Below are positions 3,463 to 57,208 of a stretch of 64,000 nt of DNA, piece by piece (within the stretch, counting starts at the first letter, position 1; every line of letters begins with the position of its first letter). The translations under genes and the position numbers were made by a program. The notes beneath the pieces were generated by a model. It was not told the DNA's origin. It searched no databases and saw nothing but the letters and a program-made list of their open reading frames with translations. Source of the DNA: Lentilactobacillus senioris (GTDB lineage: Bacteria > Bacillota > Bacilli > Lactobacillales > Lactobacillaceae); contig NZ_JAPQEZ010000001.1 in NCBI RefSeq assembly GCF_026798195.1, positions 308,901 through 372,900 of the forward strand. Reading direction: 5' to 3'.

Positions 3463-4098
3463 ATGAAGTTTGCAAAAGTAGTACCAGAAAGTTTAACGAC
3501 CGGCACGTTCGCCGAAGTTTACGACGATGTAGATTCCATGTTGCGCGGTAAATTAGTGCAAAATGAAAATGCAGAAAAGCAACGAATTACCCATGCCATC
3601 ATCGAAACGGCGGTGTTTGAGCGGGTTAAATTTACCAAAAGTCAGTTAACTAAGTTAGAATTAACCGATGTTGTTTTTAAAAACTGCGATTTTTCTAATT
3701 GCGATTTAACCAACGCTACCCTGTACCGCGTGGAATTCTACGATTGTAAATTAGTGGGGGCTAACCTAGAGGGGGCGTACCTTAGTCAGGTTTTATTTGA
3801 CCACTGCCTATTAGATCTAGCTGGTTTGAACAAATTAGACGTGCGCAAGACCCAATTCGTTAGTTGTAACTTAAAAGACGCTAACTTCAGTGATAATAAT
3901 TTGCGGGAAACAGAGTTGGTGGACTGCGACATTAATAATTTGATGTTGTATGATACTAGCCTGAAAAACCTCGACCTTAGCTCCTGTCGGTTTGCGACTT
4001 TGGAACTAGAATCGAAAACTTTACGGGGGTTGACGGTGACCGAAGAGCAAGCCGCTATGCTGGCCAACAGCTATTTAGGGGTTCGAATTAAATATTAA
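3463..4098 (+). CDS. Pentapeptide-repeat protein
   Basis: 211 residues. From about residue 50 to 180 the sequence runs in A(D/N)LXX-type five-residue steps (for example NCDFSNCDLTNATL and GANLEGAYL), which fold into a right-handed quadrilateral beta-helix. Such proteins mimic DNA or act as scaffolds; some protect gyrase from quinolones (Qnr/MfpA), but nothing here points to that role. Strong site AGGAGG precedes the ATG. It lies 56 bases after the phosphoesterase gene and could be cotranscribed. A terminator follows. The biochemical role is unknown. Confidence 0.85.
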   Translation: MKFAKVVPESLTTGTFAEVYDDVDSMLRGKLVQNENAEKQRITHAIIETAVFERVKFTKSQLTKLELTDVVFKNCDFSNCDLTNATLYRVEFYDCKLVGANLEGAYLSQVLFDHCLLDLAGLNKLDVRKTQFVSCNLKDANFSDNNLRETELVDCDINNLMLYDTSLKNLDLSSCRFATLELESKTLRGLTVTEEQAAMLANSYLGVRIKY

Positions 4099-4102
4099 AT
4101 AT

Positions 4103-4131
4103 GGCGCTACCCATTTGAGTGGCGTTTTTTT
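4103..4131 (+). terminator. Terminator after pentapeptide-repeat gene
   Basis: GGCGCTAC and GTGGCG pair (one G-T), followed by seven T. Confidence 0.7.
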
Positions 4132-4213
4132 GTGGAATGAAAATCACCTCGAATACTCCATTTAGGATTAGTACTCGAAATTTCCCGAACTAATCACACT
4201 TCTTTTTTATAAC

Positions 4214-4255
4214 TTGATCCACATCAATTTTTTTCCGGGCGAGGCCCCCTATACT
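4214..4255 (+). promoter_or_regulatory. FNR-type box plus -10 element of the metal/redox operon
   Basis: TTGATCCACATCAA at 4214-4227 matches the FNR consensus TTGAT-N4-ATCAA at every fixed base. TATACT at 4250-4255 is a good -10, which puts the transcription start near 4262 and the box centre at -41.5, the class II activation position of CRP/FNR regulators. No -35 hexamer is present and the spacer is GC-rich, as expected for an activator-dependent promoter. A TTG that could be taken for a start codon of the next gene is the first half of this palindrome. Confidence 0.75.
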
Positions 4256-4285
4256 GAACTCATCAACACAAGGGAGGACGTCAAC

Positions 4286-6205
4286 ATGAAATTTGAACGT
4301 TGGATTAGAAACCATACGAATCATTTGACGGTAATAACGGGAATCTTAATCGTTGCGGGCTTGGGAGCCCAATGGTTGGGGGCAGCAACCCTCAGTCAAT
4401 GGCTACTAGCGATTGCGTCGGTGATTGCCGCTGTACCGGTAGTGATTAACGCGATTGAAGCTCTGCGCTATAAAACCATCAGCATTGAATTGTTGGTCAG
4501 CATTGCCGTAATTGGGGCGTTTATCATTCAAGAATACGCCGAATCAGCGGTAGTCACTTTCCTATTTCTCTTTGGGAGTTATTTGGAAAACAAAACCCTG
4601 GCTAAAACCCGCCAATCAATTAAGAAATTAACCGAAATGGCACCGACCACGGCTAACGTAGTACAACCGGACGGCTCGATCAGCGAAGAAGACGTTGATT
4701 TCTTAGATGAAGGTGACGTTGTGTTAGTCAAAACTGGTGGGCAAGTACCGGTTGACGGAACGATCATTTCTGGTGCTGGCTACGTAAATGAAGCTTCGAT
4801 CACTGGAGAAGCTAAGCCAGTGAAGAAACAGGTAGGCGAAGCGGTATTTTCTGGTTCCCTACTAACTAACGGAACCGTTCAAATCGAGGCGACGAAGGTC
4901 GGAGATGAAACCACCTTTGCTAAAATCATTGAACTGGTGGAAGAAGCGCAAGACGCCAAGTCACCAGCTGAGAAATTCATTGATCGGTTTGCAACGTACT
5001 ATACGCCAGCGGTGCTAGTACTAGCGCTACTGGTGTGGCTGTTCAGTCAAGATTTCAAGTTGGCCATCACCGTGCTGGTGCTAGGTTGCCCAGGCGCATT
5101 AGTCATTGGCGCCCCAGTGTCTAACGTGGCCGGTATCGGCAACGGGGCCAACCACGGGGTCTTGATTAAGGGCGGCGACGTCATGGCTACTTTGGCGAAA
5201 GTCGACACGTTTGTTTTTGATAAAACCGGAACGTTGACCCGCGGGGAAACTACCGTCTCGGCTTACCGACAATATGGGAATGCGCCAGCGGTGTTGCCGT
5301 TGGTGGCTAAGGTAGAACAGCAATCTGACCATCCACTGGGTAAAGCTATCATAGATTACGCTGCTGACCACGCCGAACAGGTGGCAGTACCACAGATTGA
5401 ACAAGTCGCCACTATCAAGGGGCAAGGCTTAGTCGCCACCTTAGAAAACGGCGAACAGTTATTGGTGGGGAATTTACGGTTATTAACCGCCAATCAGGTA
5501 TTAGTAACTACAGAACAAGAAGCCGCCATGCGCGAACTGCAACAAACCGGTAGTTCTACGGTATTAGTCGCCTTGAACGCCAAATTAGTTGCGTTGATTG
5601 GAGTAGCTGACCAAATCAGACCGGAAGTAGCTACCCAATTAGGAGTGCTACGTAATTTAGGGGCCCAACAATTAATCATGCTGACTGGGGATAACCAAGC
5701 CACTGCCCAGGCAGTAGGGGACCAGCTAGGATTGGACCGGGTAGAAGCAGAATTATTGCCTGAGGACAAATTAACGATCGTCAAAGAGTTACAAGCTGCC
5801 GGCCATAAAGTGGCCTTTGTCGGAGACGGTATCAATGATAGTCCGTCGATTGCAACTGCTGATATTGGGATCGCTATGGGCGGTGGAACTGACGTAGCGG
5901 TAGAAACTTCCGATGTGGTGCTAATGCGTTCAGATTTTGCGGAACTAGTGCATGGTTACGGCCTAGCGCAGAAAACCATGGCCAACCTAAGAGAAAACAT
6001 TACGATTGCGATCTTGACCGTGGGCTTCTTATTAGTTGGGTTAATGTTGGGTTACATCTACATGGCTAGCGGGATGTTGGTTCATGAAGGCAGTATTCTC
6101 GTCGTAATTTTTAATGCTATGCGCTTATTAAAATACCAAGTAAAAAAAACAAAACTTGACGCAGATCAAGTTAATTCAACTAACAACGTCTTACAATCTA
6201 AGTAA
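4286..6205 (+). CDS. P1B-type heavy-metal translocating ATPase
   Basis: About 639 residues with the complete P-type core: TGEA near 173 (actuator), DKTGTLTRG near 311 (phosphorylated Asp), HPLGKA (the P1B HP motif), MLTGDN, and GDGINDS near 512 (hinge). The membrane metal site reads CPGAL instead of the usual CPC, CPH, TPC or SPC, so metal specificity cannot be assigned by rule. There is no N-terminal CxxC metal-binding domain; a separate HMA protein is encoded next. Start ATG 4286 is chosen because GGGAGG lies eight bases upstream; the longer frame from TTG 4214 would begin inside the FNR box. Probably exports a soft or transition metal. Confidence 0.85.
   Translation: MKFERWIRNHTNHLTVITGILIVAGLGAQWLGAATLSQWLLAIASVIAAVPVVINAIEALRYKTISIELLVSIAVIGAFIIQEYAESAVVTFLFLFGSYLENKTLAKTRQSIKKLTEMAPTTANVVQPDGSISEEDVDFLDEGDVVLVKTGGQVPVDGTIISGAGYVNEASITGEAKPVKKQVGEAVFSGSLLTNGTVQIEATKVGDETTFAKIIELVEEAQDAKSPAEKFIDRFATYYTPAVLVLALLVWLFSQDFKLAITVLVLGCPGALVIGAPVSNVAGIGNGANHGVLIKGGDVMATLAKVDTFVFDKTGTLTRGETTVSAYRQYGNAPAVLPLVAKVEQQSDHPLGKAIIDYAADHAEQVAVPQIEQVATIKGQGLVATLENGEQLLVGNLRLLTANQVLVTTEQEAAMRELQQTGSSTVLVALNAKLVALIGVADQIRPEVATQLGVLRNLGAQQLIMLTGDNQATAQAVGDQLGLDRVEAELLPEDKLTIVKELQAAGHKVAFVGDGINDSPSIATADIGIAMGGGTDVAVETSDVVLMRSDFAELVHGYGLAQKTMANLRENITIAILTVGFLLVGLMLGYIYMASGMLVHEGSILVVIFNAMRLLKYQVKKTKLDADQVNSTNNVLQSK
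6156..6169 (+). promoter_or_regulatory. Second FNR-like palindrome inside the ATPase gene end
   Basis: TTGACGCAGATCAA differs from TTGAT-N4-ATCAA at one base and lies within ACTTGA-N6-TCAAGT, a perfect 6-base inverted repeat, about 60 bases before the HMA gene. No clear -10 follows at the class II distance. Confidence 0.3.
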
Positions 6206-6228
6206 ATAATCCAGAGGAGGTCATGATT

Positions 6229-6456
6229 ATGAGTCGTGCGATTTTACAACTAGATGGGTTGTCATGCCCATCATGTATGACTAAGATTCAAAACGCATTA
6301 GGGCAACAAGCAGGAGTGGAAACGGTTAAAGTGCTGTTTAACGCTGCTAAAGTTAAAGCCGATTTTGATGCTGACCAAGTGAACGCTGACCAATTGGCGG
6401 CAGTGGTTACCAATCTCGGTTACGAAGTTAAAAACGTGAAAGTTAAAGAAGCCTAG
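6229..6456 (+). CDS. Stand-alone HMA-domain metal chaperone (CopZ-like)
   Basis: About 75 residues making a single heavy-metal-associated ferredoxin-like domain: beta strand AILQLDGL, then the metal site CPSC, and the closing GYEVKNV strand. Such proteins carry Cu(I) or similar soft metals to P1B ATPases; here it likely serves the ATPase encoded 23 bases upstream, which lacks its own HMA domain. ATG 6229 is preferred over ATG 6223 because AGGAGG ends only two bases before 6223 but eight before 6229. Third gene of the operon follows 11 bases later. Confidence 0.85.
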   Translation: MSRAILQLDGLSCPSCMTKIQNALGQQAGVETVKVLFNAAKVKADFDADQVNADQLAAVVTNLGYEVKNVKVKEA

Positions 6457-6467
6457 GAGGAATAAAA

Positions 6468-7016
6468 ATGTCAGAATTAACCCCAGCCCAAATGTGGGCC
6501 AATGAACAAACACAAGCAGATCAGGATCACCATACTCCCACCGCGGGAGCCATGACGGGACACATTGTCGCTAACTTAGAAGTTCTAAGCCACAAATTGA
6601 TGCAGGCTAGCTGGTACGTTACTGGTTTAAATCGCTCAGCCCTTCGCGAACTGTTCGCAAACCAATTGCAGCAAGCGCAAACCCAACTATTTGAATTGGG
6701 CCAAGTCTTGATTGATGAAGGTGAAATGGCACCTAGTACCGCTCAAGAGTTTGCAGATTACAGCATGTTAGAAGAGGCTGGTGAGTTAAAATACGAAACG
6801 GCTGAACGAATCGTTGATCAATTAGCTCACGATTACTACACCGAAAACCTTTTCGTTACCCGGGCTATCAAGTTGGCTGAAAAAGAAGATCGACCAGTTT
6901 TGGCTGGTTACCTAACCACCTTGCTAGGTAGCAACAACCACAACATCGCAGAATTACAAGCAATGCTTGGCCGTTTCGGCTTGGCTGGCTTGGAAGAAGA
7001 GGATGACGAAGATTAA
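6468..7016 (+). CDS. dps: Dps-like ferritin, DNA protection during starvation
   Basis: 182 residues of mostly helical sequence. The block HKLMQASWYVTG matches the H-x-x-x-W-x-V-x-G region that carries the Dps ferroxidase ligand, and EEAGELKYETAERIVDQL fits the later helices. Dps shells oxidise Fe(II) with peroxide and store Fe(III). It has an acidic C-terminal tail (EEEDDED) rather than a lysine-rich DNA-binding tail. It is the last gene of the ATPase-HMA-Dps operon, linking metal export with iron storage under probable Flp/FNR control. AGGAGG precedes the ATG and a perfect hairpin follows. Relics of further dps copies lie 1.2-1.6 kb downstream. Confidence 0.8.
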   Translation: MSELTPAQMWANEQTQADQDHHTPTAGAMTGHIVANLEVLSHKLMQASWYVTGLNRSALRELFANQLQQAQTQLFELGQVLIDEGEMAPSTAQEFADYSMLEEAGELKYETAERIVDQLAHDYYTENLFVTRAIKLAEKEDRPVLAGYLTTLLGSNNHNIAELQAMLGRFGLAGLEEEDDED

Positions 7017-7020
7017 ATAA

Positions 7021-7052
7021 AAAGCATTTCAGTTGGACTGAAATGCTTTTTT
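7021..7052 (+). terminator. Terminator of the metal/redox operon
   Basis: A perfect 12-base stem AAAGCATTTCAG / CTGAAATGCTTT with a 5-base loop, followed by T-rich sequence. Confidence 0.9.
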
Positions 7053-7095
7053 GTTGCTTATGGCCAAATTATTGCTGTTTATCCCGAAATGAATT

Positions 7096-7236
7096 TCAAT
7101 GTTTGATTACCCACGGATCGGTAAGAATACCAATGATAATTAGGATAATGCCAATTATTTTGGTTGTCATTGTGGTTTGTGTTAGAAATAAAATCAGACC
7201 AATCACAAATGTGGCAGTTGATAGTATTTGTTTCAC
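7096..7236 (-). CDS. Tiny hydrophobic membrane protein (46 aa)
   Basis: GTG start preceded by AAGGAG with a good gap on the minus strand. The 46 residues begin (M)KQILSTATFVIGLILF and contain two hydrophobic stretches separated by TQTTMTTK, ending DPWVIKH. It is second in a two-gene minus-strand unit, 52 bases after the 53-aa gene. No family is recognised; two-helix proteins of this kind occur in lactobacilli as orphan or bacteriocin-immunity-like genes, but nothing here proves such a role. Confidence 0.6.
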   Translation of the reverse strand: MKQILSTATFVIGLILFLTQTTMTTKIIGIILIIIGILTDPWVIKH

Positions 7237-8548: not shown

Positions 8549-8658
8549 ACTGTTAAAGTCAGAACTAGTTGCAAACCAATTGCATCAATCATAACATCGC
8601 AGAATTACAAGCAATGCTCGGTCGTTTTAACTTGGCTGGTCTGAAAGAAGTGAAATAA
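8549..8658 (+). pseudogene. Relic of a dps copy with internal deletion (2)
   Basis: The end, 8587-8658, encodes NHNIAELQAMLGRFNLAG and then LKEVK-stop, matching the C-terminus of the intact Dps (NHNIAELQAMLGRFGLAG). Just before it, GCAAACCAATTGCA matches dps bases near 6659. The roughly 270 bases between these points in dps are missing. Differences (GRFNL, KEVK end) show an old paralogue rather than a fresh copy. Confidence 0.65.
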
Positions 8659-11282: not shown

Positions 11283-11864
11283 TTGGGCAAATTAAAGGTA
11301 ACAACGACTAAGTTACAAGATGTTAAGATTATTGAACCAGCAGTTTTTGGTGACAAGCGCGGGTTCTTTACGGAAACTTACTCTGACCGTGATTTCAAAG
11401 AAGCTGGAATTGATTTTGATTTCATTCAGGATAATTAATCATTGTCAGCTGAAGCGGGTGTTTTGCGGGGACTGCATTTTCAACGTGGCAAGGCAGCGCA
11501 AACTAAATTAATTCGCGTGGTGACTGGTGCCGTACTTGATGTTATTGTGGACGTTCGTGCTGGCTCACCTACGTACGGTGAATGGGAAGGCTACATTATC
11601 TCTGAAAGTAACCACCGTCAATTGTTAGTCCCCCGTGGTTTTGCCCATGGCTTTGTGACATTGACTGATAATGTTAATTTCTTATACAAGTGTGATAACT
11701 ACTACAACGCTGAAGTTGATGGTGGAATCACCTTTATGGATAAAGATTTAAATATTAACTGGCCTATTGATTACGATCAAGCTATTACTTCTGAAAAGGA
11801 TGCTAAACAACAGACCTTCAAAGAATTTGAACAGAATAATCTGTTTGTTTACGGCGAAATTTAA
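11283..11864 (+). pseudogene. rmlC: dTDP-4-dehydrorhamnose 3,5-epimerase RmlC, interrupted by an in-frame stop
   Basis: The frame opens at TTG 11283 (GGGAGGG eight bases upstream) and encodes a normal RmlC N-terminus (EPAVFGDKRGFFTETYSD, FIQDN). It then meets TAA at 11436-11438 and continues in the same frame with SLSAEAGVLRGLHFQ to 11864. The family usually has FIQDNQSLS or FIQDNHSLS here, so a single CAA to TAA change explains the break. The catalytic His of RGLHFQ is downstream of the stop. Reinitiation at TTG 11442 could give a 140-residue protein lacking the first strands. Total length about 193 codons, normal for RmlC. Confidence 0.85.
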
Positions 11865-55819: not shown

Positions 55820-56476
55820 ATGGTTAAACAGGGGCAGCGAGCAGCCAGTCGGCGGCAAAAACAAATGAAACAACGATTAAAACAAAAAGTAAAACGTAGT
55901 CAACGAACAATTAATATTGATCAACTACCCGAATTTATGTTGGTGCGGTATGGATTGACACTGAAGAAACGGTTGCCCAAATTATCAGCAGAAACCCTGC
56001 AACGATTGCTACAAGCAATGTTAGAAATGCTTCCTGCTGGGGAGCAATGGTCATTAACACTGTGGCTGATAGATGTTTTAAAAACTATGAACAACCAACT
56101 ACCTTGGCAGTTTTACCTATTAGTAGCTGAAAATTGGTCGCAATTTCAAGCCTTTTTAGTGCGGGAATTACCTGCTGTTCCACTAACTCAACCACTTATT
56201 ATCAGTGACGAAGTGAGAGAAGTAGAGTTAATTACGATTGTTAGCCACCAGCTGGCTGTTAATTTCTTTTTGACCACTACTCAAAATAATCCGGCATTAA
56301 TGCGGCAGTTGCCAGCAAACCAGATTGAAGAACTACAAAGTAGTCTTAACGACTTACAAGCCGTAGATTGGCCAAAGGTAGCTAGTTTATTAGGGCCAGT
56401 TGAACCGATGGGAGATGCAGGCACGCAAGCTTGGCTGACGGCGTTAAATCAATTAGCAGCTGAAGGGAGTAACTAA
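55820..56476 (+). CDS. Unknown protein cotranscribed with the Flp regulator (218 aa)
   Basis: 218 residues. The first 32 residues are very basic (QRAASRRQKQMKQRLKQKVKRSQR) and the rest is helical and rich in Leu, Gln and Trp (LSAETLQRLLQAMLEMLPAGEQW, LPWQFYLLVAENW). No signal peptide, no recognised domain. The basic start could bind nucleic acid or membrane. It is one base away from the flp gene, so it is probably part of the same regulatory unit; lactococcal flp genes also sit in operons behind unrelated ORFs. Function unknown. Confidence 0.65.
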   Translation: MVKQGQRAASRRQKQMKQRLKQKVKRSQRTINIDQLPEFMLVRYGLTLKKRLPKLSAETLQRLLQAMLEMLPAGEQWSLTLWLIDVLKTMNNQLPWQFYLLVAENWSQFQAFLVRELPAVPLTQPLIISDEVREVELITIVSHQLAVNFFLTTTQNNPALMRQLPANQIEELQSSLNDLQAVDWPKVASLLGPVEPMGDAGTQAWLTALNQLAAEGSN

Positions 56477-57149: not shown

Positions 57150-57160
57150 TAGAAAAAATA

Positions 57161-57208
57161 AAAAACCGTAGTTTATTGATTGAGTAGGATCAATAAACTA
57201 CGGTTTTT
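57161..57208. terminator. Bidirectional terminator between flp and thrS
   Basis: AAAAACCGTAGTTTATTGAT and its complement around an 8-base loop serve both convergent genes. Confidence 0.9.

Follow-up and report, generated by a model that had tools for sequence, protein, structure and literature searches.

Conserved FNR-type boxes with class II spacing at two promoters of a P1B-ATPase/HMA/Dps-like operon point to Flp as its probable activator in lactic acid bacteria

The operon and its proteins

The window, i.e., the whole stretch of 64,000 nucleotides from Lentilactobacillus senioris analysed here, contains three consecutive genes coding for a P1B-type heavy-metal ATPase, a small HMA-domain protein resembling a metallochaperone and a Dps-like ferritin-fold protein. 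They lie between two terminator-like hairpins, the first of which follows a pentapeptide-repeat gene (Table 1). A regulator of the CRP/FNR family, flp, is encoded about 49 kb from the operon. The HMA-domain protein has a possible alternative start at ATG 6229. Approximately 2.5 kb upstream of the operon, two frames (764–1732) resemble, by eye, methionine sulphoxide reductases B and A.

Table 1. Features of the operon, of its two predicted promoters and of flp, in positions of the window.
Feature	Position	Strand	Remarks
Terminator-like hairpin, 3' of upstream pentapeptide-repeat gene (3463–4098)	4103–4126	+	Hairpin scan
Flp/FNR box TTGATCCACATCAA, first promoter	4214–4227	+	Centre 4220.5; in 40/41 upstream regions
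-10 element TATACT, first promoter	4250–4255	+	22 nt 3' of box; predicted start 4262
P1B-type heavy-metal ATPase, 639 aa	4286–6205	+	TIGR01525, 552.1 bits (cut-off 346.25)
CPG motif of ATPase	5087–5095	+	34/34 aligned ATPases reaching the motif
Second Flp/FNR box TTGACGCAGATCAA, inside ATPase 3' end	6156–6169	+	Box before HMA in 32/34 comparable loci
-10 element TACAAT, internal promoter	6192–6197	+	Predicted start 6204
HMA-domain protein, metallochaperone-like, 77 aa, CPSC	6223–6456	+	PF00403, 39 bits (cut-off 24.8)
Dps-like protein of ferritin fold, 182 aa, lacking the ferroxidase ligands	6468–7016	+	PF00210, 51 bits (cut-off 24.5)
Terminator-like hairpin, operon end	7019–7051	+	Hairpin scan; 3' of last gene
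flp, CRP/FNR-family regulator, 223 aa	56478–57149	+	Cys9 and Cys107 the only cysteines; likely binder of both boxes

The ATPase belongs to the P1B type by its profile match. P1B-4 ATPases carry SPC in TM4 and HEGGT(X)5N in TM6, according to PMC10800456, and the window protein resembles them in lacking an N-terminal CxxC (none was found in the first 80 residues of any of the long ATPases). Near its C-terminus it has HExS(I/V)(X)5N, present in 34/34 sequences and reading HEGSI(X)5N in the window, which comes close to the TM6 motif of P1B-4 but is not identical to it. It differs in having CPG where P1B-4 has SPC, as do all 34 aligned proteins and the seven plasmid-encoded ATPases looked at (7/7). 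This alignment derives from the 37 of 41 loci that gave an ATPase, three of them cut before the motif; left out were L065, L075 and L077, with no ATPase in the stretch, and L071, with a broken frame. To our knowledge, no metal has been assigned to the CPG-type group of P1B ATPases.

The Dps-like protein has a ferritin-like domain and its nearest solved chains are 1zs3 (E 3.3e-28) and 1zuj (3.4e-23), the DpsA/DpsB proteins of Lactococcus lactis, with which it has in common, by sequence comparison only, a DHHxPTAGAM stretch near the N-terminus. A loose form of this DHHxPTAGAMxxH-like stretch appears in 40 of the 41 Dps-like proteins and may bind metal. The ferroxidase site of canonical Dps (two His, two Asp, and one Glu) is absent: its positions are occupied by S, R, A, F, and Q, vs H, H, D, D, and E in two canonical Dps that this genome also encodes. 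Among the 41 Dps-like proteins, both His are kept only in L092 and L093, the second Asp in 31 and the Glu in nine. One control over a metal exporter, its chaperone and an iron-storage protein had been proposed in the initial annotation; the grouping of P1B-ATPase, HMA and Dps-like genes stands, but "iron storage" is unsupported for the window protein since all five ligands are missing. Further downstream, positions 8584–8649 match residues 156–177 of the Dps-like protein at 86% identity, which looks like the remnant of a second dps copy; the same match is found in genome G007, and genome G003 has a broken second dps copy.

The first promoter and its conservation

Ahead of the ATPase gene the predicted leader is 24 nt long and AGGGAGG precedes the ATG at 4286. 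The initial annotation had described here an exact TTGAT-N4-ATCAA palindrome at -41.5 from the start set by a TATACT -10, with a GC-rich spacer and no -35 box, and had read this as the architecture of a class II activator. The palindrome and its centre hold base for base, and the distance is confirmed relative to the predicted start, placed 7 nt past the -10 element. The spacer is G+C-rich once past a run of T. No -35 match at spacers of 16–18 nt is better than those that shuffled regions produce, and a sigma-70 promoter scan of 3900–7200 returned none at this site. With its box centre at -41.5 from a predicted start, 22 nt between box and -10 and a -35 at chance level, the geometry agrees with what class II activation would demand, and the 22-nt spacing is kept in relatives.

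These relatives were collected by searching the Dps-like protein in 80 genomes, of which 62 gave a match at E <= 0.001. Besides the window's own, 41 genomes had dps at E <= 1e-20, and regions were fetched from 40 of these (G054 was left out), namely 22 of the window's own genus and 18 from 18 further genera, four families by their labels, so that with the window itself we have 41 upstream regions from 19 genera. As 22 of the 40 relatives share the window's genus, the loci are not independent. Two loci with a species name were obtained, from L. senioris (99% identity in Dps) and L. kribbianus (80%). The gene order ATPase-HMA-Dps is found in most loci; the exceptions are L075 (dps alone), L077 (HMA-HMA-dps, ATPase absent), L084, L087, and L089 (ATPase after dps), L092 (HMA first, then ATPase) and L065, which is at a contig end.

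The box, as TTGAYN4RTCAA, is present upstream of the first gene in 40 of the 41 regions, the sole exception being the contig end, with 121 nt visible. Exactly 22 nt 3' of it a TAnnnT follows in 38 of the 40 boxed regions, the other two (L084 and L089) having GATAAT, and no other box offset is common to more than five regions. A -35 match of at least 4/6 occurs in 3/40 regions vs about 15% in shuffles. Compared with its nearest relative, L054, the window has a different spacer and an identical box and -10. Absence of the palindrome from relatives had been named in advance as grounds for giving up the regulatory reading, which therefore passes this test. When the first-gene regions were shuffled, a box arose in 0.18% and box, 22 nt and TAnnnT together in 0/12,300.

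An internal promoter ahead of HMA and Dps

Within the operon there is a second conserved promoter, ahead of the HMA and Dps-like genes and predicted to be of class II from the same layout, which the initial annotation had missed. In the 34 of 41 loci (window included) where the ATPase precedes the HMA gene, a box lies no more than 400 nt 5' of HMA in 31, and L068, whose box is slightly further up, raises the count to 32/34. It is absent from L072 and L090, and none occurs in the 121 nt of L065. All but one of the 32 boxes have TAnnnT at +22, L082 having GATAAT, and the shuffled internal regions gave the combination in 0/10,200.

Of these 31 boxes, 23 begin within the ATPase frame and eight past the ATPase stop, and coding constraint alone is thus no explanation for its conservation (in L071, where the ATPase frame is broken, the place of the box is uncertain).

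Plasmid copies and split loci

Relatives of the Dps-like protein were detected on 329 plasmid records, most of them from Enterococcus (145) and Lactococcus (60). We have read eight plasmid stretches, three of which (L133, L134, and L136) are nearly identical at their boxes. Scanned on one strand, the eight stretches contain 21 boxes, every one with TAnnnT at +22 and located 5' of an operon gene or flp. On plasmids pKF147A and pIBB109_AgSa_4 of L. lactis, the ATPase and HMA-Dps-Flp are preceded by one box each. The Leuconostoc stretch (L135) has the order ATPase-HMA-Dps-Flp with boxes 5' of ATPase and of HMA, and on each of those from E. faecium, L. monocytogenes, and L. salivarius there are four boxes, which precede dps, flp, HMA, and ATPase. 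The L. paracasei stretch L130 has boxes 5' of ATPase and HMA, and the stretch L132 a single one before HMA-Dps.

Genome G067, where this dps was not found, has boxes with TAnnnT at +22 before flp, HMA, and ATPase, and one more in between, and in G027 a single palindrome separates divergent flp and HMA genes, a TAnnnT lying at +22 in either direction. Counter to this pattern, TAnnnT is missing at +22 from the boxes of L122 and L123, the one in L123 standing before flp with TATACT 21 nt on rather than 22, and the 3.7 kb examined of L129 (genome G049), with flp and part of an ATPase, contain no box.

Flp operons of L. lactis were reportedly described by Gostick et al. in 1999. The two L. lactis plasmids above, in which the ATPase comes first and HMA-Dps-Flp second, both units having their own class II box, differ from the window in that the flp of the latter is distant from the operon and has no box of its own.

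Flp as candidate regulator

The protein encoded by flp combines a domain like those binding cyclic nucleotides (cNMP), a Crp-type helix-turn-helix and two conserved cysteines, as expected of Flp-type regulators. FNR proper has four cluster-binding cysteines; since the window Flp has only Cys9 and Cys107, FNR's set of cluster ligands is absent. Both cysteines are invariant in 31/31 aligned rows (with the window protein counted twice), and so are E189 and R193 of the recognition helix, S192 being found in 30/31.

The initial annotation had pointed to this protein as the regulator, and the distribution of the genes favours it as the likely one. Among 79 other genomes, 41 have both flp and dps, none dps alone, seven flp alone and 31 neither (Fisher p = 1.4e-15, not corrected for kinship and with thresholds, dps E <= 1e-20 and flp E <= 1e-25, chosen after the fact). 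None of the 41 operon-bearing genomes is therefore without flp, and in 15 of them flp adjoins dps, within about 0.4 kb.

Autoregulation of flp was considered and discarded for the window's genus, no box being found before flp in 20 loci (L100–L119, the window's included); flp does have its own box on the Enterococcus, Listeria, and Ligilactobacillus stretches. Directly 5' of flp in the window, a 218-aa frame (55820–56476) without Pfam or NCBIfam match is probably co-transcribed with it.

The FLP of L. casei reportedly has a reversible disulphide switch, and the window Flp is alike in being FNR-like with two conserved cysteines. Because these cysteines are invariant, a tie between metal handling and redox state through Flp, as first suggested in the initial annotation, is plausible. 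According to PMC5039431, L. casei Flp may be active with no iron-sulphur cluster, and for L. lactis FlpA a cluster bound by other residues has been described. Across 34 Flp proteins, histidines are concentrated in the stretch of up to 12 positions that precedes the invariant Cys, where they make up 62 of 325 residues vs 108 of 7,290 past it, and this enrichment makes direct metal sensing possible. The stretch is weak in the window's genus, with one His in the window Flp, and six of the 34 proteins have none.

Proposed mechanism and alternative readings

The anatomy of the operon, the constant 22-nt spacing, the fact that both promoters are conserved and the co-occurrence and linkage with flp lead us to infer that Flp binds the boxes and activates rather than represses, with transcription starting at the predicted positions; class II activation at -41.5 by this FNR-like protein very probably drives the P1B-ATPase, HMA and Dps-like genes from both promoters. 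Flp at -41.5 would recruit RNA polymerase to a promoter with a -10 element and no -35, switching on the P1B-ATPase, the HMA metallochaperone and the Dps-like protein, and the promoter within the ATPase gene would supply extra transcription of HMA and Dps with the ATPase excluded. Once Flp is active, the proteins of the module would capture a transition metal and export it, and might also protect DNA.

It is unlikely that the box is instead a repressor site, where Flp, or some other regulator, would sit over the -35 region and keep the polymerase out until released by a signal. The position over the -35 region would fit such a role too, but promoters with no -35 above chance should be weak without an activator, and a box held at a fixed 22 nt from the -10 is more than a repressor needs. 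Still less probable is another CRP/FNR protein as the actual binder, for example the second one in this genome, at G000:C1:140618. This protein is 33% identical to Flp, its recognition helix is similar (TPETLSR) and a class II box precedes its divergent neighbour; yet relatives at 78% identity or more were present in only three other examined genomes (two more have 47 and 41%), whereas the boxed operon occurs in 41 of 79 genomes and is tracked by flp. There are six HTH_Crp_2 matches above the cut-off in the genome, and the two proteins examined among them are Flp and this one.

The second regulator is encoded in L096 836–2132 (G000:C1, approximately 140618–141908), divergent to a 186-aa protein for which no Pfam or NCBIfam match was obtained. 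The gap between the two genes contains TTGACATTTATCAA, followed 22 nt on, in the direction of the 186-aa gene, by TACACT. This divergent arrangement recurs in L145, L146, and L147, and in L148 the -10 is shifted.

As for the palindrome being a chance match next to an ordinary sigma-70 promoter, exact palindromes are not rare in this genome (see below), but the reading is practically untenable because box and 22-nt spacing are conserved over 19 genera (40/41 regions), no -35 stands out above chance and the shuffles gave 0/12,300.

Occurrence of the box in the genome

The genome-wide scan for TTGAT-N4-ATCAA that the initial annotation had called for was run and gave 19 exact sites in the 1.80-Mb genome vs eight for the reversed control; the palindrome being this common, it is little proof by itself. 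Joined to the spacing (TTGAYN4RTCAA, 22 nt, TAnnnT), the count falls to four vs one in the reversed control, and two of the four are within this operon. A further genome hit, C12:52548, apparently lies 5' of a gene that by eye looks like one for phosphoketolase; it can also be read as an ordinary TTGACT/TAAGAT promoter and, given the one hit of the control, is taken as chance. Two exact palindromes are found in the window, and the one at 11767–11780, which lies within a coding frame, was set aside. We have also discarded a near-box at 57180–57193, past flp, that overlaps the loop and stem of a hairpin (57160–57206) which by eye looks like the flp terminator; hairpins can evidently yield box-like matches.

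Flp and metal handling in lactic acid bacteria

Since the late 1990s it has been difficult to say what Flp proteins do in lactic acid bacteria. The layout described here would make one conserved target visible, a single module for metal handling with class II boxes at constant spacing ahead of its transcription units, in the chromosomes of 19 genera and on plasmids. The constant position of the box, repeated at the internal promoter, suggests an FNR-like activator dedicated to metal handling in these bacteria. A connection between Flp and metals is already known in outline, the FNR-like FlpA being counted among nine metal-homeostasis regulators of Lactobacillales in PMC3616900, whose main text, in the parts on FlpA, names no targets, site position or promoter class. 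The likeness is that of an FNR-like Flp tied to metal homeostasis in that work and a Flp-type regulator with a metal operon here, and the operon may already be part of that regulon. Our literature search, whose scope did not extend to the older Flp papers, found no published Flp-controlled ATPase-HMA-Dps operon. The present analysis adds a class II geometry kept constant at both promoters, the internal promoter itself, boxes ahead of split units, a Dps-like protein that lacks the ferroxidase ligands and an ATPase with a CPG motif.

A further and tentative possibility, which we hold to be improbable rather than probable, is that Flp serves lactic acid bacteria as a CRP/FNR activator dedicated to sensing metal, rather than chiefly as a sensor of oxygen. 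The invariant cysteine pair and the His just before Cys9 would then bind the exported metal, and Flp would drive a closed module of CPG-type P1B-ATPase, chaperone and Dps-like cage without ferroxidase site. Such a role is suggested by the two of four genomic box-and-spacing sites being in the operon, by the His enrichment and by the travelling of genes and boxes together on plasmids, and is weakened by the poor His stretch in the window's genus. With regard to the metal, fetB, annotated as an iron-export ABC transporter, is found near the Dps-Flp-HMA-ATPase set on the Listeria plasmid (L134 2146–3560), and a VIT1/CCC1 transporter near the same set on the Leuconostoc plasmid (L135 6474–6959), neighbours that give a hint, and only that, of iron or manganese.
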